This document shows, in pieces, positions 3,956 through 63,016 of a DNA stretch of 64,000 nucleotides (positions are counted from its first letter, which is position 1; every line of letters begins with the position of its first letter). The notes under the pieces were generated by a model. It saw only the letters and a list, made by a program, of their open reading frames with translations. It had not been told where the DNA came from and did no database searches. The stretch spans positions 1 through 64,000 of the forward strand of contig VCMS01000138.1 in NCBI GenBank assembly GCA_022539475.1, given 5' to 3'. Made by a program: the position numbers and the translations under genes. The stretch is from Gracilaria domingensis (lineage: Eukaryota; Rhodophyta; Florideophyceae; Gracilariales; Gracilariaceae).

Positions 3956-3985
3956 AAGGGTATTGAGATATACACGACACTTTTA

Positions 3986-4879: not shown

Positions 4880-4996
4880 GTTTTGAAAGCTTTCGAAAGG
4901 GTTGTTTTGCAAATGGGTGTGGGTATACGAATGAGAAGGATGTGATTGATGTTCACAAGGTGTTTCGTAGTATAAAAAGAGTCTAAGAACGACCAT

Positions 4997-9246: not shown

Positions 9247-9332
9247 AAGCGGCCATAGCTCAGTCGGTAACCACCTTTGTGTGCTTTTTGTGTGATCTGG
9301 GGGTCCTGGGTTCGAGCCCCAGCTCTGCTTTT
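9247..9332 (+). tRNA. Degenerate tRNA or tRNA-derived sequence
   Basis: Both internal RNA polymerase III boxes are present: an A box TAGCTCAGTCGG and a near-perfect B box GGTTCGAGCCC inside a T arm whose 5-bp stem (CTGGG/CCCAG) pairs fully. The acceptor arms AAGCGGC and TCTGCTT pair at six of seven positions, counting one G-T. A T-run follows at the 3' end. The D-stem partner is missing and the anticodon arm does not fold convincingly, so this is probably a decayed tRNA or the head of a tRNA-derived element. Element I is inserted about 75 bases downstream. Confidence 0.4.
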
Positions 9333-9405
9333 CTACACTCATGGTACACCAAGCACGCTTGTTGTGGAACGCTGATAAGTTTTATCGTTTACCTACGTTT
9401 GGTCC

Positions 9406-9931
9406 GTGTCGTACAATGGATTTTGCCTAATGGTTCTGCTACAAAGGGGATTATGAGGAGGAATTGACCGGTTGATAATGTGCTACAGATCTACCACGTG
9501 TTTGTTGACGGCTTTGTGGACAATCTACTAACTAGTTATTAATTTAGATAATTTATTTAATTATGTAGATATTTTAGAGACGCACGTGGTGCATCAGACA
9601 ATACGTCTGACACGTGTGCGAGATCGCGTTGACCCGGCAGCCATACGTAGGCGCTGCCGAGGTCCGTGTCTCCTACGACTTGTAAAGTAAGCACCAACTT
9701 GGTAAAGTCTTGCCTTTCTGGTTAAGAACTACCACCGCTAAGGTCTTGTGCGTACGCTTGCGCTCCCGCTTGTCGTTTCCGATACGGCCGAAGCTAGCAA
9801 TCCTACCTACTGTACCACTTGGTATTCAGGTGCTCGTCTACCGTCGTGGTTCGTCTCCTACTTCGTACCTTATAGGTCGAGCCCTCGCTGGCTCCCCACA
9901 ACCGACGAACACCGCCCGTGGCTATACGACA
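9406..9931 (+). repeat. 5' LTR of Element I
   Basis: Starts at TGTCGTACAATGG and ends at GCTATACGACA. It contains copies of the ACC-N4/5-GGT motif (for example ACCAACTTGGT and ACCACTTGGT). Matches the 3' LTR at about 98 percent. Confidence 0.95.
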
Positions 9932-9936
9932 TATTT

Positions 9937-9952
9937 TGGTCTCCCGACCGAG
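9937..9952 (+). promoter_or_regulatory. Primer-binding site of Element I
   Basis: Five bases after the LTR lies TGGTCTCCCGACCGAG, beginning with the TGG that pairs with the CCA end of a tRNA. Its first 12 bases are identical to those of the Element II primer site, so both probably use the same tRNA primer. Confidence 0.7.
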
Positions 9953-10093
9953 AAGGTTGTTGTTGAATAACACCTAATAGATGTTTGTGGTGTCCACTTT
10001 GGAAACGAAGCCCTTCGTAGGACGAAAGGAATTCAAACCAATTCGGTAGTTGGAATACCAAGAAAACAATTAGCTACCCCGGTCAGCCAAATA

Positions 10094-12307
10094 ATGGTGA
10101 AAGCTAAGAGGTCTATTCAAGGGTCTAGTGCCCCTTCAAGCCTTGCAGGTGGACCTTCTGTACCTCTGGTAAAACCAATTTTGGATAACCCGGAGGAATT
10201 GCTACGTAACCCAAGAGGTAAAGCTGTCCGTCCCGGCGACCCGGTGGCGACTGCGCCGTCGGATACCGTGAAGGTCAACCCTTATGGTGAAATGGTTGAG
10301 GCGATCTGGCCTCGTCTTGAGGAGCGAGCCAGATATCTCCTGACCCACGTAATGAAGGATGCCACAACCAATAAGGTAGACCTTGAAGGTGGAACAGCTG
10401 GGCCCTCTTTGGACGTGGACACAATTACCCGAGTGGTAATTGACCGCGTGGTTGTGGAAGTTAGGGCAATGTTACCGAAAATGGTGCGCGAGTACCTATG
10501 GACAGACGTCAAATGTGAGATATACCGCGTGGTTCAAGACCTATGGATTACCGAAGGGTACGCAGAAGGAAAACCATCTACGGTGAACATGGTAAGCACA
10601 AAACCTCATGAGGTCCCGAGGGGTTCGCTACAATATCCTCAGTCTTTTCCGGCTGACAGTGGGGACCACAAGGGTTCGTTGGGACGTGACCGCAAGGGCT
10701 CGGCAGCAGATGTTCCGACCGGTTACTATTTGCCCAAAACAATTGGTATCGCTCGAAAGGGTACCGGAGGAGGTGGCCCTGAGGGTGATTCGTCTGACTC
10801 GGAGGATGAGCGGCGAAGAAACCATAAAGGTAAGAAATAGGAGAGCCGTCGAGGTAGGCAGAGGAAATGGGATTCGAGTTCTACTTCGTCGAGTTCAGAT
10901 ACCGATTCGGAGTCCTCGGAGGACGAACGTAAAGGTAAGAGAAGGAGAAGGAACAAAACCAAGAGATCTAGAAGAAAATCTAAGGGAACCCGCAAGGGTC
11001 GGAAAAGAAGGAATGATTCTGATACCGAATCAGACACCGTTTCGGGCCTGGAGGTAATTCAGCCGTTGAACGACCTGTTCACCAAAGCGGTTGATTACAG
11101 GACCTACAGGTTACGGAACAAGGATTCTGACTACCCCGATGCGGTAGCTCAGAAAATTACTAAGAATCACAAGAAGCACAGCTTTCAGATGTATCTACCG
11201 GTGAGGATCCCATCGCGGTGATTGAGTTTCTGCACAAATTCAAGATCGCCTGTGACCAGAATGGTTTTTTCGAAGGGGCTGCCATGTGGTTGTTCCAGTT
11301 CTACCTTAAAGGACAAGCCTACCACCGCCTGCAGGGGCGCCTTCGAGGAAATACCCTAGTGGTTGACGACGAAGAGACGGAGATGTTGGAGAGCTACCCT
11401 GAAGTGGTTAATTTCGAAATTAGAGACATATGCGATCGATGAGGTAATACAGGAGTCCTACTCGGAGTTGCTCGCATACCGTCAAAGGCCAGGCCAAACC
11501 GAAATAGAATTCTCAGTTGCCTTGTGGAACCTAGCCACGCGATGCGGGAACGTGATCACTACCACGAGGTTAAAGTCAATGTTCTCTGACAATGTTGACA
11601 GAGCCATCCGCTCTCAGGTACGTAATTACTTGACGACTAACCGAAAGGTAGACTACGATGCCCTTTCCAGGTACGCTCAGGGTCTGGGCGACACGCTCCG
11701 CATGGGTAAGAAACCGACTCATGGTCCTACCACAAGGGAGAAACCGAAACGGTCCGTGATGGAAATCGAAGAGAACTCTACCACAGATGGTGATTCTTTG
11801 ATCAGGATACCAACTGGTACTGCAATTCCCTTGGTTGCTGCACCACATGGAAATTCCTGACCCTCTACGGTAGGGAACTGGTCAACCACACCAATTGGCA
11901 TTCCTCAGTCTGTCACGCCTCCGACCAGGGCGGCAACACAGTCACCTGCTTCCGTCGGTACTCGTCAACGGAATGCACCAAGTGCTTCTAATTCGTCTTA
12001 TGCGACGGCGAACACTGGGGAAAGAAAGTCTACCTCGATGGTAATGAGGGACCCAACCACAGGGGGTATGCTTTGCTGGTTCTGCCTCTCGGGTGATCAC
12101 GTTGCCAATAGGTGCGATAAGCTACCGCCCAGCCTACGAGATAATCTCGTGCAGGCCAGGCAGGAAAACCACTCTCACCTATTCGGTTCAGACCGGAACG
12201 AACCAACTGGTAACAGGACTGGACCATCCGGATCCCGTCAGGTCAACCTTGTGGAACAGGAACCGATCTTGGAAACTTCCTCTGCTCCCAAGCAGGAGGA
12301 AAACTAA
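10094..12307 (+). pseudogene. gag: gag of Element I (broken)
   Basis: Gag polyprotein, mostly in one frame but disrupted. It begins with a Lys/Ser-rich region, then an acidic and Arg/Lys-rich stretch (near 10800-11030), a capsid-like domain (near 11200-11650, with GEDPIAVIEFLHKF matching the Element II capsid segment GEDPILVLDFLSRF), and a CX2CX4HX4C zinc knuckle (CWFCLSGDHVANRC near 12070). Damage: TAG at 10838-10840, a segment read in a shifted frame between about 11200 and 11420, and TGA at 11858-11860. The zinc knuckle remains. The ORF ends at TAA 12305-12307 directly after GGAAAAC, and pol continues in the -1 frame. Confidence 0.85.
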
Positions 12308-15300
12308 AACCGGTTGTGGTTGAGACCACACCCAACCGGAAATTGGATGGCCATTCGATACCGAAAGGATTGGATGAAACCGTGAAAGACGAGAACAGTA
12401 CACCAATGAATGTTATGTTCATGAAGTACAATAACTATAAAGTTGGTGTCTCGCTTTTTTTCTCACCTTCCCATGCGGTTCCTGCAGTTTCTGTCCTCGA
12501 TACCGGTGCCGGTCCATGCATATTGAACACACGTATGGTACCCAAGTCGGTATTGGATACACTCAAGCAGGAGGCCACACCCAACCCTTTGGTAGATGCG
12601 AACAACCGCCCTCTGCTAATCAGAGGAACGCTGACCACGATGGTGCAAATTGGAACCTGGAAGGTATGAGTGAAATTCTACGTGGTGGACCGATTGGCTG
12701 CGGATTGCATCCTGGGAACCAGCTTCATTGACAACCACGTCAGAGCAATCTTCCCAGAATCGCAGACAATCCTGCTCGGCTACGGTGATAGGGTTGCCAT
12801 TCAAGGTCACACAAAGACCAAGAATGGATGGGTTCGAACACCAACATGGAAACTCCCAACCAATACCGTTTCCAACAAGGTTAGACTCACCAAGAAGGTT
12901 TCCATACCGCCTATGCACCAGACTAATGTAACGGTTTCATGCGATACACCAGGACTGGTAACGTTGCAGAACCATCCGAGGACAGCGGAACGACATCTTA
13001 CCTTAATGGCTAACGGAATTGTTGAGAACGTACCTCACAGACCATTTCAGGTATACCTCAGCAGTTTCGGAAACCACACGGTGAACTTGCCGAAGAATAT
13101 CGTGATAGGTGTCGCTCTACCAGCCCCAAGTGGTGTATTCATCATGCCAACCGAGTCTGGCGAGGTCACCTACTCTAAGGAAGGGGGGAGGAAATCGTTT
13201 GCGAACAACCAAGTGGTATCGACGAATGCTGACGAAAAGACCGTACTGGCTGACACCGAGACCTATGCGGTAGAAGCCAGGAAGAAACTGGAGTTAGACC
13301 CATTGAGAGATTGGAGAGAGGAATTCCATGTAGGTGAGGACCACTGTCACAACAAGCGATGTATCCTCCGTCTCCTTGAAGAATTTGAAACCATTTGGTC
13401 GGGCCAATTAGGTGAGATCAAGGCGGCCGAGCACCGCATCGAACTTGTGCCTGGCTCTCAACCAATATGGCAACAACCCTACCGTGCAGGTCCGAAAGCC
13501 CGCGGTGTGGAGTTGGAGGAGGTGGAACGGATGCTCCGTGAAGGTGTGATTGAACCCGCTCAATCTGAATGGGCCAGCCCAGTGGTGTTGGTCAGAGAAG
13601 GGGAGATCCTAGAATGAGGTTCTGTATCGACTATAGGAAGTTCAACAATGTCACCGTACGGGATTCGTACCCAATACCTAGGATGGACGAGTGCATTGAT
13701 TCCCTTGGGGATGCACAAATATTTACCACTTTGGACGCCAATTGCGGTTATTGGCAGATGCCTATAAGGGAAGAGGACCGAGACAAAACGGACTTCACCT
13801 GCCATGCTGGTATTTACCGTTTTACTCGGATGCGTTTTGGTCTTTGTAACGCACCCGCTACCTTTCAGCGAGCGTTAGATATTATCCTTTCAAAGGCCAA
13901 GTGGGGAACCGCATTGGTATATCTAGATGATGTTATCATCTATTCCAGATGGGTGAAAGAATATTTCGTTCATGTCCGTCAGGTGTTGAGACTACTACAG
14001 ACCGCACGGGTAACGTTGAAGCTCCGCAAGTGCTTCTTTTTCGATACCAAAATGGAATACCTGGGCCACACAATTAGCCCAGGTCGCCTTTTGTTTGCAA
14101 AGCGCAATTTGCGAGCAGTCCAGGAAGCGAAAGTACCGCGGTCCCAGACCGAGGTGAGGTCCTTTATTGGTCTCTGTAATGTTTACAGAAGGTTCATCAA
14201 AGGATTCGCGACCATTGCGGCGCACTTGAAAAGGAAGCTCCTAAAAGGTCAGCCCATGAGGTTTGAGATCCTCTCGGACGAAGAGATGGACGCGTTCGAA
14301 ACGCTCAAGCGAGCGCTTCTGAATCCACCAATATTTTCGCTACCCAAAGCTGGTTACCGCTACACGCTGGATACCGACGCTTCCGACGCCCAAATTGGTT
14401 GCTGCCTCATGCAGGAGCAAGAAAACGGCGACAAGCTACCTATTGGTTATTGGAGTCGAGCACTGACCGAAACGGAGAAGAACTACACTGTCACCGAGAA
14501 GGAATGCCTAGCGGTACTGTGGAGCATACTGATGCTCCATCCCTACCTATATGGTGAACGTTTTACCTTGCGGACTGATCATGACTCCCTTAGGTGGATA
14601 CTGGGATTATCAGATGCGTCCGGTCGGTTGGCCAGGTAAAGATTACGTCTATCCGAGATCGAGTTCGACGTAGAGTAACGTCCTGGTATAAAGCACAAAG
14701 TCGCAGACGCTCTGTCTCGTCTGAGTACCGATGGGTTAGATACCGAACCGGTGGAAGACGACATACCGTGCTTCACGATTTCAATTGACCCAAGTGGTAA
14801 TTTGACCGATACGGTTCAGGGAGTGTGGGAGCTACCTGGTGAAGGTGAGCTGTGGAATGAGAATCTGTACCAATAGGTCATGGCTCTCGAGGAGATGGAC
14901 ATCACGCCCATCCCAAGAGAGGAGTTCCTTCGGGAGCAAGCCAACGACGCGTATTGCAAGTCGTTGGCAGACCAAGCTGGTAAGAAGGGATCTCAGTTTG
15001 ACATCGACCGAAACGGATATTTGGTACGGAAGTCGAACCTCGATGGTTTGCTCCAAAAGGTTGTACCGAAATCCTTGCGGCCTAGAGTCCTTTACCTGAC
15101 TCACTTCTCCAGGCTGGCTGGTCACCCAGGTGGTACGAGGACTTGTTACACCTTGAGGAGGCAGTTCTACTGGCCGCATATGGCACACGATGTGTATTCC
15201 TTTGTGGCACAGTGTGAGTCATGTTTGAAAACCCGTGGTGGTGTGCGCAAACATAGGAAGTACCTCAAGCTGTTTCCAGCAGCGCGCACTATGGAGTTTG

Positions 15301-16592
15301 TCGCTATTGACCTTTTAGGTCCACTACCAAGAACCTCAAGGGGGTACCAACACATTATGGTTATCACCGATCGGATCTCAAAACTAACTCGAGCTATACC
15401 TCTGAGAGACACGAAGAGTACCACTTTGGCCGTTGCGTTTCTCAACAATTGGATTTACCCATATGGTGCGCCACTCTACTTGCTGACCGATAATGGTTCG
15501 AACCTCGCGGCGAATTTTTTCGAAGCTGTTTGTCACCTTTTAGGTATCAAACACTACTTCACTACCGCCTACCACCCGCAAACCAATGGGCAAGTGGAAA
15601 GGTTTAACCAAACGTTGGTCTCGAGGTTGCGCCACTACACTGAGGAACGCCAAACTGGTTGGGATGAGCTGGTTCAGCCGCTTACCTACTCCTACAACCT
15701 ACAGGTGCATCGCTCTACGCAGACAACACCGTTTGATTTGGTGCTGTCGCGTCACCCCCCGGGTATTGTCCTTCAAGGTGAACCCACAGGGGAGGCACCA
15801 GCTGGTTCTTTAAGTCCCGCTCAGGTGAAGAGAAATACCTTATTGAGGTTGAGGAAAGCTTTGAAGTACGCGCAGAGCAAGCTCACTGCCGCTCAGCGAC
15901 GCTACAAAGCAGACTACGACCGAGAGGTAAATCGAGTGGTATCGGTAGAACCGGGTCAGTATGTCTACCTAGACGTACCTCCAAAAGGTTCGGGACCAAG
16001 GCCTGGTGACGAGACAGATGACGAAGAGATTGACCGCGAGGTTAACTTTAAGTTACTCCCAAAATCTACGGGTCCCTATAAGGTTCTGAAGTTTACTGAC
16101 CAGACGGCGACAATACTCCAAGATGGTATGCACAATACTGTGTCAATTGAACGCGTATCGGTGGCACCGGAGGCGGTTCAACACCGTAGGGATGCGGGAG
16201 AACGCGCGCGAGATCGCCGTGCGGCTGAGCTTCGCGCTACACCAAGTGGTGAAGAACAACCTTTAGAGGTAGGTGAAGACGAAGGCGGAACCGATCCGGA
16301 CTACATCTCACCCGTGGAGGAGCGAAGTGACCCTGATAGTGAAGCTCGGAAAACCTTGAAGGACATCGCGACAAACGCAGAGAACCAAGTGGTAGACGCA
16401 CAGGAGTCGGATGAATATCCTGTGGAATCCATCGTCGGTCACAAACGTACACCAGAAGGTCTTAAGTACCGCGTACCGTGGTATGGTTGGGAGCCGGAGG
16501 GTGACACTCCTGAGCCACCCTCAGTTATCCCAAAGAACTTCGCCATCCGATACTGGCGGAGGCGAGGGGAACCTATGCCACCGGACGGTTGA
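12301..16592 (+). pseudogene. pol: pol of Element I: protease, RT, RNase H, integrase, chromodomain (broken)
   Basis: The -1 frame is open from the gag stop onward. Domains in order: aspartic protease with LDTGAG near 12495; reverse transcriptase with WASPVV near 13572 and the catalytic YLDD near 13917; RNase H with LDTDASD near 14368 and RTDHDSLRW; integrase with an HHCC zinc finger near 15100-15230 and the DDE core (VAIDLLG, TDNGS, TNGQVERFN); and a C-terminal chromodomain-like segment (LKYRVPWYGWEPEGDTPEP near 16460). Damage: TGA at 12667, a frame change near 13600, and stops at 14637 (TAA), 14676 (TAA) and 14874 (TAG). The integrase-chromodomain part (14880-16592) is still one open frame of 570 codons. 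Confidence 0.92.
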
Positions 16593-16621
16593 CTTGTCTA
16601 ACAACATCTGTTGACTCCTCT

Positions 16622-16634
16622 AAGAAGGGGGGGA
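16622..16634 (+). promoter_or_regulatory. Internal polypurine tract of Element I
   Basis: AAGAAGGGGGGGGACA lies 30 bases after the pol stop. Element II has a second polypurine tract at the corresponding place, so this is probably a duplicated plus-strand primer site and not chance. Another G-run (AAGGAAGGGGGGGGGAGAAG) lies near 17520-17540. Confidence 0.5.
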
Positions 16635-17029
16635 CATAGTCTCCCCCCTCTTTTGTTGCTACTAACTTATAACCAATTGGTAACATGAGGTAACTAACCA
16701 AACGGAATATTCGCGAAAAGTTGCAACCACAAAGGAGAGCATTTGTTGGTGGTGAAGAAACCTCAGGGGAGATGGCGCCCATGATCAGTAATGATGAAGA
16801 CGCGACGTATACATGGAGCCGTGGAGGTCGTGCGTAGCACGTGCCGCACCACGCGACGCACGCCCCCCGGTCCGGGCACGCGCCTCACGCGTGCAAGACT
16901 AAATGGTGGAAATCAAAAAATTTCCCTTTTTCAGATGGCATAAGTGCACGCGCATCATGCTTCGAGCCTGGTGCGAGTAACCGATTCGGTATACACTATT
17001 GTGTGTAGCGTGCATACGCACGCACGGTC

Positions 17030-17225
17030 AAAAAATTCAAGTATTTTGACCTCGCGGCGGTGCAAAATCGGGCATTTTCAGCCTCTGAAACCGCCTGGTT
17101 TCCGAGATACAGACCAAAAAATGTTTCGGCGTTTTTGATACCATTTGGTGGGGTAATTTCGGCGTCAAATTTTTTGATTCGCCTTGCAAGTAACCTCTTG
17201 GTGTGAACGCCTCGCGCGCCTACAT
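17030..17225 (+). other. Conserved structured box shared with Element III
   Basis: About 190 bases that align, with few gaps, to the sequence flanking the Element II insertion (51990-52097 joined to 63876-63970). It contains three consecutive interrupted palindromes: GGTCAAAA with TTTTGACC, TTTCAG-CCT-CTGAAA, and GAAACC-GCCT-GGTTTC. Arms of the first and third differ from Element III at paired positions, which preserves the inverted symmetry. Function unknown; it lies in the noncoding part between pol and the 3' LTR. Confidence 0.65.
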
Positions 17226-17595
17226 TCAGCCCAAGAGGCGATGCATTCTCCCTGTAATACACTGCTGGACACCACAAAAACACGCGCGTAGCTCGCAAGC
17301 ACCAATATGGTACAGCGCAACGCCTCACACTATGCGCGCCGTGCTGCGTTGTGTACCATGATCGTGTGGGACCAACTTGGTTTTGCAGAGCACTGTCTTG
17401 GTGGCGCCCTAGACGGAACCGAATAGCAGACCTTTATGGATCTGAATAACGTTTACCACTTGGCTTACTTTGATTCCTTCAAAGGTGTGAAAGTCTACTA
17501 CCACCGTGGTACGCTGGTCAAAGGAAGGGGGGGGGAGAAGCTTATACTCTTTTGTTTTCAATGACCACTTGGTGAAAGCTAGACACCGGAACAGT

Positions 17596-18521
17596 TCACG
17601 ACCGTACAGGTGACGACCTAAAAGGTTCTCCGCGTAGGAAGAAACACCAGAAAGGTTTCGAAGCTCGGGAGGAACTTACCACTTGGTGAAGCGACGAGGA
17701 GGGAACGGAGAGTTCTTCGCCACTCGTCCGACAGTACCACATGGTTATTCTAGGAACTCTAACGAGTAAGAAACCTTTATGGTAACGACCGAAACAATTT
17801 GTAGAACAGCTCAAATGCACCACCACAGTTTGAGAAGGAGAAAAAAGGTACCAATGGGTGAAGAAGAAAATTGAACTTTTAGGTATTATAAGGCCAGTTG
17901 GCGAGTACCGAACGGTAGATTGGAATTCTCAAGAGAGAAGAGTACCGAAAGGATGCTAATTGGGAAACGATTGAGACCACGTGGTGAGAAGAAGGAAAGA
18001 GTTGGAAGGAAATTCAGTTCGTTTCGGATGGTTACCAAAGTGGTACAGAAGGGAAGCGGGCTACCAGAAGAATATGTACGGAAATACCAAATTGTTATAG
18101 CATGTCGAGAAGGACAGGTGAAGGAACCACGACGGTGTAAGCACAAACCACGAGGGTATTGGGCGCGAGCTGAAACCTTTCGGTGAGCAGCTTGGTGGGA
18201 TAGAACGGGACCGGATCGCACCCTTTGTCGGCGATTTGAGGAGACCAGAAACGGTCACCAAAGACGTTGCGAACCACCACCTCGGTACTCCAATGTGACA
18301 ATTAGTTAATTGGAAGTTAGGTGCTGACCTAACTGGTACTGGTAGACATACCGAACCGGTTTGCAGTTGTACCCATTCCGTGGAATGAGACCTGAGAGGC
18401 TCCGGAAGAGCTCAACTTCGAAGACGCGGGTTTCATTAAGCGCCATGTAGGTGAAATTGAAGAACCGCTTGGTAAGAAAGAGTGAAATTTCCACATTGTG
18501 AGTGGGAGAAATGGACACCAT
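17596..18521 (-). pseudogene. Possible decayed antisense ORF of Element I
   Basis: In the position where Element II carries its antisense 599-codon ORF, Element I has only short minus-strand frames. Two of them faintly resemble the family: one with FGRYHKGF followed by VPRITMWY (near 17740-17800; compare TGRYLPLP...VPRGCHVE in Element II and QGRYVTIP in Element III), and one with SLFLTKRFFNF...LSGLIP (near 18400-18500). The similarity is weak and by eye only, and chance is possible. Confidence 0.25.
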
Positions 18522-18797
18522 CTTGGGCGGAATTGAACCAAACCAATTGGCATTTCTGAGACCGCAACCGTATTATGAGAGAAGCTGTTCGAAGAATGGG
18601 GAGATCTATGACATACCTTGAAAGGCAGACCTTTTCGGTGAATTAAGAGAAATTTATTTCTATACCACATGGACGCAACGAAACATTATGCCTAAGACCA
18701 ATTGGTTTTTCTGTTCTAATGACGAAGAGAAAAACATGGTTGGGACAGAAGAAACCACGATGTGGAATCAAGGAAGCCACGGAGCGTTTCTCATGGT

Positions 18798-18807
18798 AGG
18801 AAGGGGG
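18798..18807 (+). promoter_or_regulatory. Terminal polypurine tract of Element I
   Basis: AGGAAGGGGG two bases before the 3' LTR, the expected primer for plus-strand synthesis. Confidence 0.7.
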
Positions 18808-18809
18808 TC

Positions 18810-19334
18810 TGTCGTACAATGGATTTTGCCTAATGGTTCTGCTACAAAGGGGATTATGAGGAGGAATTGACCGGTTGATAATGTGCTACAGATCTACTAC
18901 GTGTTTGTTGACGGCTTTGTGGACAATCTACTAACTAGTTATTAATTTAGATAATTTATTTAATTATGTAGATATTTTAGAGACGCACGTGGTGCATCAG
19001 ACAATACGTCTGACACGTGTGCGAGATCGCGTTGACCCGGCAGCCATACGTAGGCGCTGCCGAGGTCCGTGTCTCCTACAACTTGTAAAGTAAGCACCAA
19101 CTTGGTAAAGTCTTGCCTTTCTGGTTAAGAACTACCACCGCTTAAGTCTTGTGCGTACGCTTGCGCTCCCGCTTGTCGTTTCCGATACGGCCGAAGCTAG
19201 CAATCCTACCTACTGTACCACTTGGTATTCAGGTGCTCGTCTACCGTCGTGGTTCGTCTCCTACTTCGTACCTTATAGGTCGAGCCCTTAATGGCTTCCC
19301 ACAACCAACGAGCACCGCCTGTGGCTATACGACA
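18810..19334 (+). repeat. 3' LTR of Element I
   Basis: Starts TGTCGTACAATGG and ends TATACGACA, matching the 5' LTR with about 11 differences in 526 bases. Followed by GTCTG, the right copy of the target duplication. Confidence 0.95.
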
Positions 19335-44040: not shown

Positions 44041-45222
44041 ATGTCAACGCCTCTACGTCATCAAATTGTCACCGCTCTCTCTGCCTGGATCGCCGCAGAT
44101 GAAACCGACAGCAATACCGTCGCGGTTGTTCTTCACCACACGACGCAAGACAACACGATTCTGCTGGGCGTACCGCAGGACAAACGAGGTAGCAGCGAAA
44201 GCCGTGCATGGCGTCTACGTCGAAACAGTGTAAACTGGTTCTACGAGTATGCCCTCAAAAGAGAATTTCAGATGTCATTCCCTTGGAAGCAAATGTTCCG
44301 TATAGAATATACTCTGTTTCGGACAATTGCAGACTGTATACGCCCGGCTATTCAAAGAACTGACACGAACTACCAAAAAGCGTGGTCCGTAGATATCAAA
44401 CTCGCTGCTTTTCTGCTCTATGTTGGAAGTTCTAATTGTGAGGGAACCGCATGTCAACTGGGAATAAGAACCAGTACTGTGTCGTTACTGATTTCAATTG
44501 TAGCTAAAGCTATAGTGCAGCAGTATCGATCGGAAATTTGCTTCCCAAATGACAATGACTCAATTGCCAAGGCCATGAGTGGATTCAAAAGCATTTCAAG
44601 ACTCCCCCATTGCGTTAGCGCTGTGGCTGTTGTGACTGCAGACAGGAAATTTATCTATGCAGATATAGAGCGACCAGGAGTGCTGAGTGATTCTACAATT
44701 TATCAACGATCGTCCTTGAAACGGAACATAGAACAAAAGTTATGGCTTGGAAGCATTGCTCCTGATTTGATGGTAAGCGGTGTGCCTGTGAGACCATATT
44801 TGATCGGCGACTGCGACTTTGAGCTCGGTATCACAATGAAGAAAACAGCTAGTGCACGCGAGAAGCAAGCCAATCCGGTATTGAATCATTGGGATGCAGT
44901 CGCGAGTGAAGCGCGTAAGCCTGTCCAGTGCGCATACGGCATACTGAAACAGAGGTTTCCGGTACTAAAGGAGAGTGTGAAAATGCAGCATGAAGATGAC
45001 ATTTCGCTCGTTTGCCACGAAGGTTTAGTGCTACAAAATTTGAGTGTGGACGACGGAGACTTTCAAGGGTATGAAATCGAAGCGCCTGGTTTGTTTTCTG
45101 GTGATGATTGCGTTTCAAGCCACACAGCAGGCGCAAAGCGACAGAGGGATGCATTGCTTTACTACATAATCAACAGTTCCTCCAATGAAAACTCAGAAGA
45201 GGTTCATATCTTTTCTACTAAG
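44041..45222 (+). pseudogene. Harbinger/PIF-type DDE transposase, catalytically dead and cut by an LTR
   Basis: A long open frame (open from 43891; the ATG at 44041, MSTPLRHQIVTAL, is the likelier start). It has the Harbinger order: a helical N-terminus, the segment FIYADIERPGVLSDSTIY (compare the family pattern W-P-G-S-x-x-D-S), and the C-terminal LIGDCDFELGI and FPVLKE blocks. Two catalytic positions are gone. The segment expected to hold the first Asp (family GAIDGTH) is missing between PHCVSAV and VVTADRKF. The Glu of the third motif (family V-x-E-x-A-F-G) reads PVQCAYG, with Gln. The frame runs at 45223 straight into a reversed LTR and stops at 45336, so its last 38 codons are LTR-derived. 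A domesticated, non-transposing protein is possible, but the LTR fusion suggests decay. Confidence 0.7.
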
Positions 45223-46079
45223 TGTGGTGCAAAACCATTGACGGGAAAACAGCAAACCGCGTCGCGGACGAGCACCTCAGGGTGTTCAGGCCCTGCTCCC
45301 TGTGAAGGGCAGTCGAGCGGCAGAACCCTCCGATAGGGCCAACACGAGCCGGGTGTAAATCCGGGCGGCCCCGATCTGGGCGTGCAGTCGGAGGTAGAAG
45401 GGGTAGAATCGGCGTAGGTATCCGGATGGTTCCGGCGAGCCACAGCGAGTGGGGGTATCCAGCCCAACGGTATGGGACGACAAAAGATCAACAAACGAGC
45501 CGCACTGCGGAGCACTGACTCGCGATAAGCGGGAAAACTCCCGAGACAAATAAAACAAACCTACAATGTAGGGCAGAGTAGCAAAAGCCGTAAGACGGAA
45601 ATGAAAACAATAAAATAGATAAGAAAAGTGCCGTGACGACGGATTAGTACTCCTCAGGGACGGAGGTTGGTTGATCAGCCCGGAATTGCGGCGGTATTCC
45701 CCAGGATGGGGCTGGTGACTGTGCGCAAGCGGCAAGAAGATCAGAGCCAAAGGCCTCGTTGAGGTTTACTTCCCGTACAGTGGCGGCAAGTGCCGCCACT
45801 TATATACGGCACTTGAAAATATCAATTAAAATATCTAACTATCCGGCGCTGCCGGCCAATACACTACAGGTGTGCCCCCGTGGCATGCTTGCCACGGGGC
45901 CCGCGCGATCGGGCCAACTTGGCACACGTGTGCAGAAATACTACCCTTCCTAGGCATACCCCAAAATAGGGGCACTACCCCAGTAGCCTCTCATAACCTG
46001 AGGTGTCGAAGCCGGTAACGGATCAACAAACTATGAAAAGCACCTCGGTGCACCCCCACAAAGGGCGTTTTGCTCTACA
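45223..46079 (-). repeat. LTR of the reversed Element II relative
   Basis: 857 bp, inverse of the Element II LTR, with the same ends (TGTAGAGC and GCACCACA) but more differences than the two LTRs of Element II show to each other. Its far end meets the transposase frame. Confidence 0.92.
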
Positions 46080-46132
46080 TCTCCCCCTTCTCAGGCTGAG
46101 ACACCGACTCCGTCGGCTCGATACGCCTCGCG

Positions 46133-47932
46133 ATGGAGCGATATAAGGAAGTCTCCCAAGACGGGTCTGCCGAGAACTGTTCGGAGCCACCAACATTTCC
46201 GGTGTCAGTAGCGAACCTCGTCATCTCGAGCCCTTCCGCGATGTCCAACGCACCGAACGGCCCTCCGTCCTCGACGGCACGCATGCAAGTGTCGAACCCG
46301 CCGTTCCGGTCTGTACCTCTCCCGCAGTCGGCGGCTGCCTCCCAGCCGGGTTCTTCCGGACAAGATCACGCTCCAGCTCAGGCTGGTCCCGCGCCCGTGT
46401 GGGATTGGTTCAACGCCGAGATGCCAGCTACGCTGGGTGGATGGCCTACCGCAGGCGCCTTACGCATCCGGGATCCGCACCGGCACAGTTTCCTTTTTGC
46501 CCAGGCTCCCTGGTTTGACGCCGAAGCCGTTCGGGATACAGAGCTCGTCGACTCGTACGCTGTCGACGGTCAACTCCCTGGTGGGCTTCCTGCTGACGTT
46601 ACCCGTTCATGGGACTGGATCGCCCGCGTTGCGGTTATACCGAGCTGCCTGTTTGTAGGTCGAAACGAGACGAGACAATTCGCTCGCAATGAGATGGCCC
46701 GCATTGGGTACGCGCGACACTTCCGAGCTCCGAACGAACATCCGGTGCCGGCACAGTACCAGTACGATGTGGCACGTTACCGAACTTTCGGCGAGGTCGG
46801 CTACGGCGACCACCTAGCCAACGCGTTGGACGAAATTGACCGATATTCGGATACCGTTCAGCCGCAGCAGGAGTTGATCCTGTGGGCGCGGCCGATCCTT
46901 CGCGCCGAGTTCCGGTTCCTTCGCCGTCCTGGACGGTCTCAATTTCATGAAGGCCTCCGATTCGAGAGGAAATGGCGTTCCCGCTTCGGGGTACTGGTGC
47001 CGTACCAGTGCACGGAGGTGGAACGCATTGCGCGTCATTCCCATACTGGGCGATACCTACCGCTGCCGTCATTCTGGCCTGCGGTCGAAGTCCCACGAGG
47101 GTGTCACGTAGAGCTACCGCCCTGCCTAACTTACATAGGCTCGTACTTCATGAACGATCCGCCTCGCGGCCTGTGGAGCATCCTGGCAACAGAATGGACC
47201 GTCCGCGTTGCGGCTTTCCTCCTCATCGAGGCATATGATTCGTACCGAGTTTGGTTCATCCCGGAACTCATCCGGCAAGCGATCCGAGCGTTGGATCTCT
47301 CCGAAGTGCTCGGCTCGGTCCGCAATGCGCGCGAAGCCACCGCGTTGGTGGACGTCATTGACCAGATTGACTGGAATGAGGTGCCTGCTAGTCAGGTTTC
47401 CGACGGAGTCCGTCGGCAGTCGGACCGTTCTCCCGGACGGAACGTCAACGCCGGCGACTTCGTATACTTTGACCCATGGATTTGGGAGGTAATTGGCCCC
47501 GCTGAGGCGGCTGGTCGCCGCCGAGAGGAGCGATATATCCCGGAAGGGCACCCGCGTGGGTTCGTATACGTCGACGATGACGGTGATGACCCTGCAGAGG
47601 GAGGAAGTCCCATGGATGAGGGGAGCCCAGTGGGGGTTGCCTCGGAGCCCGACGCTACGGGAGATGACGACGAAGTCGTGATCGTTGACCCACCCACTGT
47701 AGCGGCTCCCGCTCCGACCGGTTCGTGGGCTCAGGATGTAGCATCCGCCGTGGGCGGCAGTTCTTCTCTCACTCCGCGAGCGGCGGTCATTCGCGACTTC
47801 CTTCGAGGCGTGGGAGTGGCCGTTCCCGATACGGTGACCGACGAGTCGGAGTTGCAAGCAATAGCGGCACAGCGCTTCTCCGGGGCTCCCGGTAGTGGGG
47901 GCACCCCAGGTGCTGGACCGTCCGGCGCGTAA
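46133..47932 (+). CDS. Antisense-ORF protein (599 residues), copy in the reversed relic
   Basis: An intact 599-codon ORF, antisense to its retroelement, starting 54 bases from the LTR. The product differs from the Element II copy at about eight residues. Features: a Pro/Ser-rich N-terminus of about 85 residues; a middle with several Trp/Arg-rich blocks (WARPILRAEFRFLRRPG, HTGRYLPLPSFWP, IDQIDWNEVPA) and no transmembrane segment; and an acidic C-terminal region including DDDEVVIVDPP, which has the form of a SUMO-interacting motif (VVIV flanked by acidic residues). No known family. It lacks a signal peptide and a membrane helix, so it is not an envelope. A diverged homologue lies at 49667-51816. 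Any transcript must begin within the adjacent LTR, read in reverse. Confidence 0.8.
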   Translation: MERYKEVSQDGSAENCSEPPTFPVSVANLVISSPSAMSNAPNGPPSSTARMQVSNPPFRSVPLPQSAAASQPGSSGQDHAPAQAGPAPVWDWFNAEMPATLGGWPTAGALRIRDPHRHSFLFAQAPWFDAEAVRDTELVDSYAVDGQLPGGLPADVTRSWDWIARVAVIPSCLFVGRNETRQFARNEMARIGYARHFRAPNEHPVPAQYQYDVARYRTFGEVGYGDHLANALDEIDRYSDTVQPQQELILWARPILRAEFRFLRRPGRSQFHEGLRFERKWRSRFGVLVPYQCTEVERIARHSHTGRYLPLPSFWPAVEVPRGCHVELPPCLTYIGSYFMNDPPRGLWSILATEWTVRVAAFLLIEAYDSYRVWFIPELIRQAIRALDLSEVLGSVRNAREATALVDVIDQIDWNEVPASQVSDGVRRQSDRSPGRNVNAGDFVYFDPWIWEVIGPAEAAGRRREERYIPEGHPRGFVYVDDDGDDPAEGGSPMDEGSPVGVASEPDATGDDDEVVIVDPPTVAAPAPTGSWAQDVASAVGGSSSLTPRAAVIRDFLRGVGVAVPDTVTDESELQAIAAQRFSGAPGSGGTPGAGPSGA

Positions 47933-48069
47933 TTCCCCGGCTCGCGATCCCCGACGGGCTACGGTAGTCCGCGATAGACCCCGATGATGAGGGGCGACCC
48001 AATAGTTAGAGGTAAACTTCTCCAGCCGTGCTGGCTTGGCTCAAACTCTTCGTCTTGCTCTCCCCCTTC

Positions 48070-48261
48070 TCAGTGGGCAATACCTCGTTTGAGGCTGTTG
48101 CGAATGGCCCACAAGAGAGGGGTAACTTTTCCGCACAAGCGGCTGTAGCGATAAAACTTCTTAGTCTTCCTTCCAGTGTCCTGGCTTCTTCTCCTTCTTC
48201 TTAGGCTTCTTTCTTCTTTATCTTCTTCTCCACTGTAAGTGACTTCCGCATTTCGCGGCAT
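48070..48261 (-). CDS. Small basic ORF (63 codons) of the relic
   Basis: Encodes 63 residues with a strongly basic middle (LRRRRRSQDTGRKTKKF), on the same strand as the relic's pol, after pol and ending at the internal polypurine tract. The Element II counterpart (60834-61025) differs at three residues. Whether it is translated is unknown. Confidence 0.4.
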   Translation of the reverse strand: MPRNAEVTYSGEEDKEERSLRRRRRSQDTGRKTKKFYRYSRLCGKVTPLLWAIRNSLKRGIAH

Positions 48262-48420
48262 GTTTGTTCAGCAAAAGCTGTCCGCTTAGAGCGGCCTGGT
48301 CCGCCTGAGGCGGCTAAGTGATCTCAAGTTAACTTAGTTGCACCCGCTTGACGCGGCATATTCTTGCGTAGTGCAATACTGTCCGCATGAGGCGGCATAT
48401 TCCGTCCGAGACGGCTGCGC
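48235..48420 (-). repeat. Six CCGC-N5-GCGG palindromes in the relic
   Basis: CCGCATTTCGCGG, CCGCTTAGAGCGG, CCGCCTGAGGCGG, CCGCTTGACGCGG, CCGCATGAGGCGG and CCGTCCGAGACGG lie within 190 bases. They match, inverted, the six in Element II at 60674-60850. Confidence 0.9.
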
Positions 48421-48577
48421 TCAATAGGAACGTGGGTGGTCAACCCACTTGGGCCTTGTCCAGCGTAGCCGGTATCGGTGTCCGTGTGCGACGGTGGTAC
48501 TGCAAGACCTTCGAGCGAGGCAAGTGCTCAATGGGCTCGTGCGTATCCTCTGAGGAGGCGTAGCCGTACCAACGGAC

Positions 48578-49354
48578 TCAATACAGTAGTTCCCCGTCAG
48601 GGGCGTAGCCGTGACTTACCAGACGGTCAATGACATATTCCTTATCGAGAACACTCCGCTCTGCATGCGGCTTGCTTGAAGAATCCTCTTTCGAGGCGTA
48701 GTCGTCGCTTCTCCCGTCGTGGGCATCGTCGTTCGTGATCGGCTTCCGTCCTGACGGCAGTACATCCTGTACGCCAGGCTTTGGTCTCCGTGACCATGGT
48801 ACTTTCCTGACCACCATGCTTCCAGATTCCTGGTTCTTCTCCCCATGCTGCTGGGCTGTGACCGTGCTTCGGTCTTCTCGAATAGCGAGCTTCCGGCGTT
48901 CCGGCACAATCTCCCGTTGCGACGGTGAACGGTCCGCAGAGCGGTGAGCCAGCGAGTGGTGTTCTGGCACGTGCCGTGGCGGCGGTTCGCCGCGCGCTGC
49001 GGTTTGCGACACCTGCGCCTTTGCATGGCTGTCAAGAGCCGATTCAAATTCGGAATTTTTTGAACCGTTTTTAGGCGGCGCCAGGTCTGTGGCTGGCACA
49101 TGTCCGGCTTGCGCACTGTAATCCTCGGTTGGAGGCGGATCTCCCACGGAGCTCGACACTTGGCGCGACGTGCACGCGTCGTCAGTGTGAGATAGTGCGC
49201 GCGAGCGACTACTCAAGAGAATGTCCGGGAACGGTGGTGTGGATGCGCGGCACACGGGGTGTAAGGCCGTGTGAGCTGCCGAGTCGGAAAAGACGGTCGT
49301 TGAAGGTGCGGAGTAGTCCATGGCACTCTGTGGTGAAACCGAGTACGGAGACAC
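48578..49354 (-). pseudogene. Pol C-terminal remnant of the relic, cut in the chromodomain
   Basis: Continues the frame of the Element II pol tail: the variable Ser/Pro/Glu-rich linker followed by the start of a chromodomain (DKEYVIDRLVSHGYAPDGELLY). The frame stops at TGA where Element II has CGA, a C-to-T change in a CpG, so the chromodomain is cut before the WYGY segment. Unlike the nearly identical antisense ORF next to it, this tail is only roughly 60 percent identical to Element II, judged by eye. Confidence 0.8.
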
Positions 49355-49400
49355 GCGCAGTCCAGAAAGGTACCACGCGCCTAGCCAGAGAGCCGGTGCA

Positions 49401-49666
49401 ACGGTAGTGATATCGCCGCAGAACAGCCTGTGCGGGTCTTAGACAAGCTGGGTTCCTACTACGACTTAGGATCCGTGCCACGGGAAACAAGACGAAGAAC
49501 CTAGTAGGAAGCACCTTGGTTTACTGTCATGGTGGCTACAGCCGAGCTGGCGAAAATAAATACCTCGTCCGGCGTCGCCACACACGTGTACGACTTACCG
49601 ATCACGGAGCACTAGCTGCCACCGGCATACACGTGGACTACTACTACTACTATATCTACTACAACA
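49401..49666. other. Junction between the relic and Element III sequence
   Basis: No gene. The end of the relic and the start of Element III-related sequence must lie here, but I see no target duplication. An ACTACTACTACTAC run (near 49637) precedes the next ORF. Confidence 0.35.
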
Positions 49667-51816
49667 ATGTCATCCGACGAGCGGGTTTCCTTACAGTGCC
49701 ACCACTGCAACCGTCACGGCACAGTATCTTACAGACCCCCCTTCTTAGCTTGTTGTCCGTCCTCGGACAACGATTCCCTCAAAAACGCTAAATCCGATTT
49801 CGGGATCTACATCATACAGTGCCCCACCCAGTTCGCCTTGTTTTTTTTGCTCATAAAACTTCCGACTTCCGGTGCCGCCAGCTCTTGCTTTTCTAAACAA
49901 ATCCTGTCTCCTCCTCCGCAACGGTTCCTCACAGCTATGCCTCAGAGTGGTAACCAATGGGTAAGTCCGGATACGGAGTTTGAGCATCGACGCTTAGGCA
50001 ACCGCAACCGAGTTGGCGCGCGCTCAGTGGCACTACCGTACTCGGTTAATCATTATGTATCCCTTGGCGGGGAATTCTTCGACGCTCAGCGGTTTGCAGC
50101 AATACCATCGAATCCCGAAAGGGGGTACTTCTCCAGCAACAAACGCCTCCGTGATGGTGCCTGGAAAGCGCGGTGGGCCCACATGCGAGTTAATCCTCTT
50201 CATTCCGACATCGGTGTCCGCCTGGATCCTGGTCTTCCAACGGATATGCCATGGGTCCGTTGTCTGCCGGAGCGAGAATACCAAAGCCGCCTGGTCGCGA
50301 TACTACTCCTGCTTCGCGCTCAGTTTGGAGATCCCTCCGTTTCGGTTGCCGCAGGACACTTCCCTCCTCCTGGTCATAACATCCTCGGCTTGGTAGCGTG
50401 GACACCGCCGTTCGATGAGATATACTTCTTCTCGAATCGAGACCACTGGGGCGATGACGTTAGCACCGAAGCTCGCATCCGGGACGGCCATGGCTTCTTC
50501 TTCTCTTGGCAGAACCAAGAATTCCATGATCTGCTTCGCCCTTTGCGCCAAGGTCGTTATGTCACAATTCCGGAATCGGGTGTCTTCGCGGTGAGCCGGT
50601 ATCTCTGCGTGCCGACGCCACCAATCATCTCCTACTTTTCCGCGTTGTTACTGACCGAGAACCGCCTTGCCACCCTTGCGTGGCAGGTACTGAACGCGGA
50701 GTGGATCGTCTTGGCATTCCTGAGCTTCTTTTTGCCGCCCGATACGGTATGCGCATGCAGCTCAACTTTAGCGACTGGAGACTTGGTCACGATCGTGATT
50801 TGAATTGCCCCGCAGGGCGTCTCTTTCGCCTCCCACCTGAGCTAGTGCGTTTAATCCGTGACGTCGGGGTTCAAAACATTGTTCGAGGAACGGAGTTCAA
50901 GGCTTCCGAAGCGGATTCTCTCCTTGACTACGTCTGTCAGATCGATTGGGACAGGACTCCAAGACCGGGCTTTCTTTGGTATGATTACGACTCCGACAGT
51001 TTTCCGGACATCCCTCGACATCCTGCGATGCGAGATGATGGGAAAGAGTACTTGCACAACCCTCCGTACCTTCCCGAGGCGGAATGGATGGATGCTCCTA
51101 GGAAGAGCGTTCAACTATACTCTCCGAGGGCGGCAGGGTTCGTAAAGGAGTCACTACCTGGTGGGCACCTCGGTCCTGTTCTTCGCTCAGTGCTGCTTGA
51201 TTCTGATCCGGTCATAACTGCGGCTGCGCAGGTCTTCCCGAAAGAATCCGTTTTGGAAGGCAATACGGAGGACGTTCAAACTGCAGTTCCAGTTTCAAGT
51301 CCGAACATCGAAGCTCCAGAAAATGAAGTTCAAAGGACGCAAGTCGCAGCAGGAGCCGACAAGAATGGGCAGCCTTCGAATCTACAGCTTCCTCACACAA
51401 ACAAGCCCGAGACAGCGGATGAAGATGAGACCGATGCGGCTGTTGCCACTGCGCTGCAGTCGCTGAATGATGAGTGCGAGAGGCTCGGTTTGCCGCGATC
51501 CAATAGTGCGGTACAGGCTCTCCAACGGGCCAAAGAATGGGCTGGGAGCGCATCTCGATTGCGAGAGTACGCGAGCCAGTTCAGCGAGTTCCGTGACCGG
51601 TTTGCAAGGCGTGCGATAGATGTCCACAACGACATGTGCAACGCGATGGATGGTATCCTCCAAGGGGCGCAAGCAAGCCTCATTGAGGATGTGACAGATA
51701 CGTTTCGATTGGCGCCATGGACGGGCGAAGCACTCAAACCAGAACTTGCTTTGTACCCAACGGTCACGCCACCGCAGTCTCCAATACCGGAAGCGAAGGA
51801 CGTTCCGCAATCGTAG
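49667..51816 (+). pseudogene. Diverged homologue of the antisense ORF, belonging to Element III
   Basis: Two overlapping frames (49667-50803 and 50680-51816) form one gene broken by a one-base slip in an oligo-T run near 50726-50733. The order of blocks follows the 599-residue protein: PGLPTDMPWVRCL, RLVAILLLLRAQFGD, LGLVAWTPPFDEIYFF, LRQGRYVTIPE, VCQIDWDRTPRPGFLWYDYD. The last is close to VIDQIDWNEVPA...FVYFDPW. The N-terminus (MSSDERVSLQCHHCNRHG) has a CxxC-type pair not found in Element II. The C-terminus is a probable coiled coil rather than the acidic tail. No introns with correct frame were found at the break. The gene is followed after about 170 bases by the box shared with Element I. 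Confidence 0.65.
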
Positions 51817-51984
51817 CTGTTTCTGGACCTCAAGCTCGACTGCGTGATCAAGTTTGGTTGCATTGCGCAAAGCAATGCACAGCGATGTACACGAAATAAA
51901 CGATTGATTTTTCGAAGAATGCCGTACTGAGATGCATCCATTGTGCGCTTAGTAGCCGAATCGGTTGCCAGTAATACGCGTAGG

Positions 51985-52097
51985 GCGCGCGCGCTGGCAC
52001 TCAAAAAATCCTAAGTATTTTGAGCGCGCCAGGAGCGCAAATCGCGTGTTTTCAGCCTCTGAAACGGCTTCGTTTCCGAGATATCGGGCAAACAAGT
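51985..52097 (+). other. Left part of the conserved structured box (Element III)
   Basis: Similar to 17030-17115 of Element I, with the palindromes CTCAAAA/TTTTGAG, TTTCAG-CCT-CTGAAA and GAAACG-GCTT-CGTTTC. It is cut by the Element II insertion after CAAGT and continues at 63876. Confidence 0.75.
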
Positions 52098-52956
52098 TGT
52101 AGAGCAAAACGCCCTTTTATGGGGATGCACCGAGGTGCTTTTCATAGTTTGTTGATCCGTCATCGGCTTCGACACCTCAGGTTATGAGAGGCTACTGGGG
52201 TAGTGCCCCTATTTTGGGTTATGCCTAGGAAGGGTAGTATTTCTGCACACGTGTGCCAAGTTGGCCCGATAGCGGGTGCGCCGTGGCAAGCCTGCCACGG
52301 TTGCACACCTGTAGTGTATTGGCCGGCAGCGCCGGATAGTTAGATATTTTAATTGATATTTTCAAGTGCCGTATATAAGTGGCGGCACTTGCCGCCACTG
52401 TACGGGAAGTAAACCTCAACGAGGCCTTTGGCTCTGATCTTCTTGCCGCTTGCGCACGGTCACCAGCCCCATCCTGGGGAATACCGCCGCAATTCCGGGC
52501 TGATCAACCAACCTCCGTCCCTGAGGAGTACTAATCCGTCGTCACGGCACTTTTCTTATCTATTTTATTGTTGTCATTTCCGTCTTACGGCTTTCGCTAC
52601 TCTGCCCTACATTGTAGGTTTGTTTTATTTTGTCTCGGGAGTTTTCCCGCTTATCGCGAGTCAGTGCTCCGCAGTGCGGCTCGCTTGTTGATCTTTTGTC
52701 GTCCCATACCGTTGGGCTGGATACCCCCACTCGCTGTGGCTCGCCGGAACCATCCGGATACCTACGCCGATTCTACCCCTTCTACCTCCGACTGCACGCC
52801 CAGATCGGGGCCACCCGGATTTACACCCGGCTCGTGTTGGCCCTATCGGAGGGTTCTGCCGCTCGACTGCCCTTCACAGGGAGCAGGGCCTGAACACCCT
52901 GAGGTGCTCGTCCGCGACGCGGCTTGTTGTTTTCCCGTCGAGGGTTTTGCACCACA
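52098..52956 (+). repeat. 5' LTR of Element II
   Basis: 859 bp. It contains several perfect inverted repeats, for example GTGGCGGCACTTGCCGCCAC (about 52379-52398) and CCGTGGCA-AGCC-TGCCACGG (about 52281-52300). Multiple short open frames inside it are not genes. Confidence 0.95.
52372..52379 (+). promoter_or_regulatory. TATA box in the 5' LTR of Element II
   Basis: TATATAAG, immediately before the GTGGCGGCACTTGCCGCCAC palindrome. In the 3' LTR the same site reads TATGTAAG, one of the few differences. Confidence 0.6.
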
Positions 52957-52959
52957 AAC

Positions 52960-52980
52960 TGGTCTCCCGACTTAGAATCG
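52960..52980 (+). promoter_or_regulatory. Primer-binding site of Element II
   Basis: Three bases after the LTR is TGGTCTCCCGACTTAGAATC, which would pair with a tRNA 3' end including CCA and T arm. The T-loop read from the complement (TTCGATT-like) is regular for a tRNA. The first 12 bases equal those of Element I. Confidence 0.7.
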
Positions 52981-53120
52981 GCTTAATTGGCCAACGTTCG
53001 TTGGAGTTGGTTCGTTTGTTTGGAGCCCAGATAGCTGGGAATATCCGTTCTTACGGTTCTCTCATTGTCCGTTTTCGGAAGTTGTTTTGGTTGCCCATTG
53101 GCCGACTGTGTCGGTGAACG

Positions 53121-55130: not shown

Positions 55131-55246
55131 GCAAGGGAGCCTCCAGCAATGGAGAGGCGCCCCCAGCGACGGGGTTTAGCGCGCCTGAGGCTGAGAAGCC
55201 TCGCTCCCCGGTCACAATCCTTTCGAGGAAACTGGCCACTACAGAC

Positions 55247-60652: not shown

Positions 60653-60673
60653 CCACCCACGTCTCTATTGAGC

Positions 60674-60850
60674 ACAGCCGTCCCAGACGGAATATGCCGC
60701 CTCATGCGGACAGTATTGCATTACGCAAGAATATGCCGCGTCAAGCGGATGCAACTTGAAGTTAACTCGAGATCACTTAGCCGCCTCAGGCGGACCAGGC
60801 CGCTCTAAGCGGACAGCTTTTCGCTGAACAAACATGCCGCGAAATGCGGA
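60674..60850 (+). repeat. Six CCGC-N5-GCGG palindromes downstream of pol
   Basis: CCGTCCCAGACGG, CCGCCTCATGCGG, CCGCGTCAAGCGG, CCGCCTCAGGCGG, CCGCTCTAAGCGG and CCGCGAAATGCGG occur within 180 bases. Arms are 4 bp (one with T/A in place of the outer-arm C/G), always separated by five bases with no fixed spacer sequence. The reversed relic has the same six. Confidence 0.92.
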
Positions 60851-61025
60851 AGCCACTTACAGTGGAGAAGAAGATAAAGAAGAAAGAAGCCTAAGAAGAA
60901 GGAGAAGAAGCCAGGAAACTGGAAGGAAGACTAAGAAGTTTTATCGCTACAGCCACTTGTGCGGAAAAGTTACCCCTCTCTTGTGGGCCATTCGCAACAG
61001 CCTCAAACGAGGTATTGCCCACTGA
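60834..61025 (+). CDS. Small basic ORF (63 codons) of Element II
   Basis: 63 residues, sense strand, after pol: MPRNAEATYSGEEDKEERSL, then an Arg/Lys-rich middle, then a hydrophobic KVTPLLWAI segment. The stop TGA is inside the internal polypurine tract region. Conserved in the relic with three substitutions. It could be an RNA-binding or nuclear-localising accessory, or a noncoding stretch whose openness is chance. Confidence 0.4.
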   Translation: MPRNAEATYSGEEDKEERSLRRRRRSQETGRKTKKFYRYSHLCGKVTPLLWAIRNSLKRGIAH

Positions 61026-61036
61026 GAAGGGGGAGA
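61024..61036 (+). promoter_or_regulatory. Internal polypurine tract of Element II
   Basis: GAGAAGGGGGAGA, identical over 13 bases to the terminal tract at 63004-63016 and conserved in the relic. It is about 140 bases before the 3' end of the antisense ORF. It may prime a second plus-strand start, as central tracts do in some other retroelements. Confidence 0.7.
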
Positions 61037-61163
61037 ACAGGAAGAAAAATGTGGGCCAAGCCAGCAGGGCTGGTGAAGTTTACCTCTAACTATTGAGTTC
61101 GCCCCTCATCATCAGGGTCTACTACGGACTACTACAGCCCGTCAGGGATCTCGAGCCGGAAAA

Positions 61164-62963: not shown

Positions 62964-63003
62964 CGCGAGGCGTATCGAGCCGACGGAGTCGGTGTCTCAG
63001 CCT

Positions 63004-63016
63004 GAGAAGGGGGAGA
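63004..63016 (+). promoter_or_regulatory. Terminal polypurine tract of Element II
   Basis: GAGAAGGGGGAGA immediately before the 3' LTR; the standard plus-strand primer. Confidence 0.85.

Follow-up and report, generated by a model that had tools for sequence, protein, structure and literature searches.

Element I and its dispersed ACC/GGT sites

The DNA analysed here (the window) covers positions 1 to 64,000 of contig VCMS01000138.1 of the red alga Gracilaria domingensis and contains two long terminal repeat (LTR) retrotransposons of the Ty3/gypsy type, element I and element II, each studded along its whole length with short inverted repeats of its own form. Element I (9407-19334) is identified as an element of this type by its LTRs and by its Pfam domains, reverse transcriptase and RNase H being followed by integrase in Ty3/gypsy order. 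A Chromo match at the integrase end scores 20.5 bits, below the cut-off of 25.1, and a zinc-knuckle-like stretch in the gag region was spotted by eye. The integrase and a dynamin-like protein (36000-37646) find their best named matches in Agarophyton, Gracilaria and Chondrus. Among the matches listed in the genome (77.9 Mb, 680 contigs) are 40 places similar to the element I LTR, two of them inside the window. An accessory gene downstream of pol finds no support, as no open reading frame (ORF) of more than 199 amino acids, counted stop to stop, follows pol in the window copy or in the genomic loci L031-L034 and L036.

Element I holds 38 copies of ACC-N4-GGT and 56 of ACC-N5-GGT (94 sites), compared with 14 and 12 (26 sites) in the remaining 54 kb of the window. 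After dinucleotide shuffling (n=300) its sequence has on average 3.3 and 3.4 such sites (sum about 6.7) and at most 9 of either, while ACC/GGT pairs at spacers of 0-3 and 8-12 number 2-8 per spacer. Spacers 4 and 5 thus stand clearly above other spacers and shuffled sequence in the comparison of ACC-N0..12-GGT counts proposed by a first-pass annotation of this DNA, and do not lie level with them. When all pairs of three plus three bases were scanned at spacers 0-14, ACC-N5-GGT ranked first (z score 16.8). Site density reaches 9.5 per kb in the 5' LTR, 8.5 in gag-pol, 12.6 after pol and 7.6 in the 3' LTR, and falls to 0.32 and 0.51 per kb in the left and right flanks. Of the 57 sites in the leader and gag-pol, 55 lie after the ATG at 10094 and two before it (or just downstream by an alternative split).

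These counts confirm the observation of a motif-studded element made in the first-pass annotation, whose estimate of about 29 copies in 16560-18720 was reproduced as exactly 29. The motif does run through coding regions, LTRs and non-coding DNA alike (Table 1) and is not a tandem duplication, Tandem Repeats Finder having detected no array within element I. Its description as a spacer of four or five between fixed ACC and GGT arms is nearly right, but spacers 6 and 7 are raised as well (18 and 13 pairs), and this in coding DNA (17 and 12 in gag-pol, one each after pol); the outermost arm bases, A and T, tolerate change more than CC and GG. The sites appear somewhat evenly spaced (coefficient of variation 0.83 vs 0.99±0.10), which is suggestive only. 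Helical phasing was rejected, with vector strengths of 0.03-0.10 at the eight periods tried.

Beyond the window, 296 kb of genomic DNA was examined. DNA homologous to element I carries 8.3-14.5 sites per kb in 13 fetched loci, whereas non-homologous DNA of 20 fetched loci carries 0-0.6 per kb, save in L032, L034, L045 and L048. L032 and L034 hold other tails of element I, and L048 holds a cousin element. A comparison with host sequence had been suggested, and the motif proved not to be enriched in the host DNA examined. Two scans confirmed no relatives in viral contigs.

L045 bears nine sites beyond its element I-homologous part. About 75 bp to the left of element I lies a stretch resembling a transfer RNA (tRNA) T-arm (9300-9330); ARAGORN reports no tRNA in the window.

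Table 1. Positions and properties of element I, element II and associated DNA in the window.
Feature	Positions	Strand	Properties
Element I, 5' LTR	9407..9931	+	TG...CA ends; 5 sites; preceding 5-mer GTCCG
Element I, leader and gag-pol	9932..16592	+	57 ACC-N4/5-GGT sites; stops and frame changes in window copy
Element I, post-pol segment	16593..18809	+	without long ORF; 28 sites
Element I, 3' LTR	18810..19334	+	4 sites; following 5-mer GTCTG
Inverted partial element II-like DNA	45222..52094	-	same mini inverted repeats as element II, 76
Element II, complete Ty3/gypsy	52098..63875	+	target duplication CAAGT; 199 CC..GG mini inverted repeats (52095-63876)
Element II, antisense ORF, 610 amino acids	61164..62996	-	between pol and 3' LTR; 33 mini inverted repeats

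Selection on the element I sites

One explanation of such a motif would be that it follows from protein sequence, codon bias or base composition. Single ACC and GGT triplets are indeed each about 1.5 times more frequent in element I than in shuffles, yet the majority of sites vanish when synonymous codons are shuffled at constant protein sequence (spacer 4, 21 observed vs 5.8; spacer 5, 28 vs 8.5). The sites moreover start in all three codon positions, although the third accounts for just 1 of the 28 at spacer 5. Codon shuffles and frame spread together reject a protein repeat or codon bias, and with the non-coding tails equally dense and no tandem array present, we regard an origin in composition or coding as next to impossible.

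Conservation was assessed in seven alignments of five copies at 74-92% identity, which are related among themselves, so that pooled counts overstate independence. At four-fold degenerate positions, arms mismatch in 13 of 210 cases (6%) vs 706 of 3046 (23%) elsewhere, and unpaired ACC and GGT triplets mismatch in 94 of 623. Compared with L033, a copy of 86% identity, 63 of 85 window sites are kept (38.5±4.7 expected) while L033 itself has 94 sites, a turnover of sites at constant density. The end of the post-pol segment (17327-18774) is not alignable with the tails of L032 and L034, the two tail types matching clearly only over 33 bp in one patch and over the final 35 bp, and still both types carry 15-20 sites per kb vs about 0.6-0.7 expected. 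The cousin element (L048, 8824-9948) has 15 ACC-N4/5-GGT sites in 1.1 kb; about 80 bp of its LTR end can be aligned to element I at 75-78%, and the start of its Gag is similar by eye.

A few observations fit this picture less well. The two tail types retain a small excess of similarity (46-48% vs 42.5±1.4 in shuffles). In short alignments to L041, L037 and L039 (91-94% identity) the arms mismatch in 6.1, 4.2 and 5.2% of positions vs 8.5, 6.4 and 6.6% elsewhere, and the spacers in just 1.9, 1.3 and 2.6%; no clear extra conservation of the arms is seen there. Taken together, the codon shuffles, the four-fold degenerate positions and the equal density in non-alignable tails demonstrate that the sites were selected and not duplicated, and that this selection includes silent sites.

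Element II carries a different code

Element II has open frames for gag (670 amino acids) and pol (1896 amino acids) and a Pfam Chromo domain of 29.2 bits, above the cut-off of 25.1. Each of its repeats opens with CC and two to three free bases; after a loop of 3-6 come the complements of these bases and GG. They reach about 17 per kb, with 16-20 per kb in LTR, gag, pol, a non-coding stretch and the antisense ORF, compared with 1.1 in element I and 0.4-0.7 in the other window stretches counted. The following tests on element II rest on one copy. Among the 134 repeats with spacer 9, the three successive inner pairs are Watson-Crick in 79, 73 and 56 cases vs 39, 34 and 37 expected, whereas the pair just outside the stem is Watson-Crick in only 11 of 169 repeats vs 44.5 expected; common outside pairs are G..A (53), A..A (18), A..C (18), G..T (17) and T..C (16). 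Hairpins of this form exceed synonymous shuffles in pol (90 vs 11.6±3.4), gag (31 vs 5.1±2.3) and the antisense ORF (33 vs 7.0±2.4). GG..CC and GC..GC anchors are not clearly raised, the largest excess being GG..CC in gag with 6 vs 2.9±1.7. In L037, an 84% identical stretch, stem pairs are unchanged in 125 of 137 cases vs 415 of 606 controls, and in L027, a short stretch of 81% identity, in 16 of 22.

The 610-amino-acid antisense ORF has no Pfam match, at least 72 genome matches at 93-100% identity and seven homologues. Those with a name all come from red algae, Gracilariopsis chorda being the best at 65%. The predicted structure of its product has a mean predicted local distance difference test score (pLDDT) of 45.1.

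A third gypsy family was found in L046 (5161-9960), where two long stretches show 64 and 68% amino-acid identity to the element II pol. Its stems read TCC..GGA and follow the same two pairing trends in 17 sites only, from one partial copy. Motif form thus differs in each of the three families studied. The third-family element sits, in reverse orientation, beside or within a copy of element I.

Among the other features of the window, positions 41960-42620 hold a local cluster of GCAATC-N4-GATTGC-like inverted repeats, partly in tandem units of 24-60 bp, upstream of an ORF (43858-45336) with a DDE_Tnp_4 match. This cluster looks like the subterminal sites of a PIF/Harbinger-type transposon. GC skew lies between +0.19 and +0.31 in four of the five leading 2-kb blocks (1-10000), and none of the remaining 2-kb blocks of the window exceeds +0.10.

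Duplex half-sites or hairpins

In element I, single substitutions are tolerated about equally in both arms, changes that preserve G.U are not favoured, and the outer A and T vary independently. This behaviour fits two half-sites on duplex DNA, and a simple RNA stem in element I is ruled out by the missing G.U preference and the missing exchange of the outer pair. The flanking and inner bases follow rules of a different kind. In the window copy, a Watson-Crick pair just outside the arms is rare (11 of 85 sites vs 21.2 expected, p 0.005) and the first inner pair is more frequent than chance would give (36 of 85 vs 27.2 expected, p 0.02). Both trends have the same direction in all five other copies tested, each with p <0.05 in four of them. 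A hairpin with a fixed end predicts avoidance of the outside pair as well as preference for the inner one, while a site for a dimer on duplex DNA would leave the flank rule unexplained.

The first-pass annotation had read the motif as a dimeric DNA-binding site. In that case, half-sites on the integrated element would be covered by a dimeric protein of the host or the element, for example for counter-silencing as by VANC on VANDAL. The symmetric and selected motif, the evenly tolerated substitutions without G.U preference, the independent outer bases, the treatment of G.T as a mismatch and the folding results given below all agree with this proposal. It leaves unexplained, however, the avoided flank pair and favoured inner pair of element I and the element II form with its free but complementary inner bases and strand-oriented flanks, and the motif's lack of enrichment in the host DNA examined speaks against it. 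On balance we consider duplex half-sites rather unlikely, if still the strongest competitor to the hairpin reading.

Alternatively, inverted repeats without function could arise by mutation, for example when reverse transcriptase switches template within small hairpins. Copying would give the perfect Watson-Crick complementarity without G.T that is seen, and the repeats are found wherever the element is copied. Against it stand the avoided flank pairs, which it does not predict, the sequence-specific ACC/GGT ends with independent outer bases, the GG..CC and GC..GC anchors, which are not clearly raised, and the conservation of arms at silent sites, the reverse of drift at the silent-site rate. 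Such an origin appears improbable to us.

The orientation of the element II flanks speaks for a single-stranded form, with G..A found 55 times and its reverse complement T..C 21 times. Inside the antisense ORF the bias keeps the same sense (9 to 3), so that the bias goes with the element's strand rather than with the gene's. Which nucleic acid is involved was addressed by pair classes and RNA folding. Relative to expectation, G.T inside the element II stem occurs at 0.56, A.C at 0.65, other mismatches at 0.69 and Watson-Crick pairs at 1.94, while at the flank G.T (1.10) behaves as a non-pair like A.C (1.09) and Watson-Crick pairs drop to 0.25. The folded stem probability is 0.417 in the own context of element II vs 0.451 in shuffled context (every second site, 109) and 0.331 vs 0.405 for element I (84 sites). 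With G.T counting as a mismatch and no gain from context, plain RNA structure is not supported; what would fit is complementary DNA (cDNA), a requirement that both strands fold, or a protein holding only Watson-Crick stems.

Besides the behaviour of G.T and the folding values just given, several results count against a hairpin code. The element I stems alone are very weak (median -0.9 kcal/mol) and show no covariation of the outer A-T. Significance is lacking for flank avoidance in L034 (p 0.33) and for the inner-pair preference in L032 (p 0.09), and the inner pair is present in only 7 of 18 and 5 of 13 sites with spacers 6 and 7. In element II, CG..CG hairpins are also raised in pol (27 vs 12.8±3.3), compensated inner pairs are nearly absent (one case in L037, the sole informative comparison), stem pairs are no more conserved than controls in L046 and L042 (third family, 64-68% DNA identity), and the LTR lacks the G..A bias (4 to 5). 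Finally, a host stretch (20-40 kb) likewise has more short stems than shuffles, there spread over loop sizes.

Proposed mechanism

Weighing these points, we lean, with confidence somewhat short of even, towards family-specific dispersed hairpin codes that are read by a putative element-encoded protein. When the element is single-stranded, as genomic RNA or cDNA, the sites would act as tiny hairpins, whose terminal base pairs may be read by an element-encoded protein, most likely Gag or its nucleocapsid. Through the sum of many weak sites, a family could then recognise its own nucleic acid for packaging or assembly, with code and reader changing jointly along each lineage; that the code differs from family to family agrees with a reader evolving alongside its element. 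The function may lie in packaging, protection or anti-silencing. Gag is the first candidate because the nucleocapsid domain of Ty3 is described as required for packaging of genomic RNA (PMC4974528) and dispersed packaging signals have been proposed to be widespread among viruses (PMC6281560).

How retroelement proteins choose their own genome among cellular nucleic acid is only partly understood. As a general statement, which we hold a shade more cautiously still, red-algal LTR retrotransposons may carry lineage-specific, element-wide mini-hairpin barcodes with a fixed stem end for putative self-recognition by their own protein, strict Watson-Crick pairing being selected across LTRs, genes in every frame and even an antisense gene. 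To our knowledge, barcode self-recognition of this kind is not known in any retroelement. If true, a dense family-specific code legible in raw sequence would allow genome choice to be tested in binding assays with exchanged short motifs. It would further show mobile elements to be open to element-wide selection at their silent sites, with consequences for the dating and classification of transposons.

Comparison with known systems

In the one open-access library searched, which lacks preprints and most subscription papers, we recognised no earlier account of LTR retrotransposons with inverted-repeat codes along the whole element, nor of motifs like these in red algae. Three known systems come close in part. 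Packaging signals of single-stranded RNA viruses are described as many sequence-structure motifs distributed genome-wide with a shared recognition element (PMC6281560). Stem-loops sharing a motif are numerous in coding and non-coding sequence of element II and, more weakly, of element I. In the algal elements, however, the shared part is the stem end, G.U is not tolerated, and the favourable context expected of an action in RNA is missing.

Sireviruses, plant Ty1/copia elements, are likewise LTR retrotransposons with many palindromic motifs, their core being a short CGG-CCG with variable middle. As described in PMC2829016, the units number at most 32 and are clustered near env and, within the LTR, ahead of the TATA box, whereas the algal elements distribute 94 or 199 units over a whole Ty3/gypsy element.

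The VANC arrays of Arabidopsis VANDAL transposons share with the algal codes a short, dense, family-specific motif that differs between families, and motif density is reported to matter for recognition (PMC5735166; these arrays are treated also in PMC10398659). According to the account in PMC5735166, most of the VANC21 motif is found outside coding sequence, where it is repeated in tandem with a single orientation; its carriers are DNA transposons, which encode the reader of the motif. As regards an additional DNA-binding protein like VANC, element I shows no post-pol ORF above 199 amino acids in the copies named above, and element II has its antisense ORF. The algal motif, in contrast, is a non-tandem inverted repeat that occupies coding DNA in all frames as well as the LTRs, and it belongs to LTR retrotransposons.

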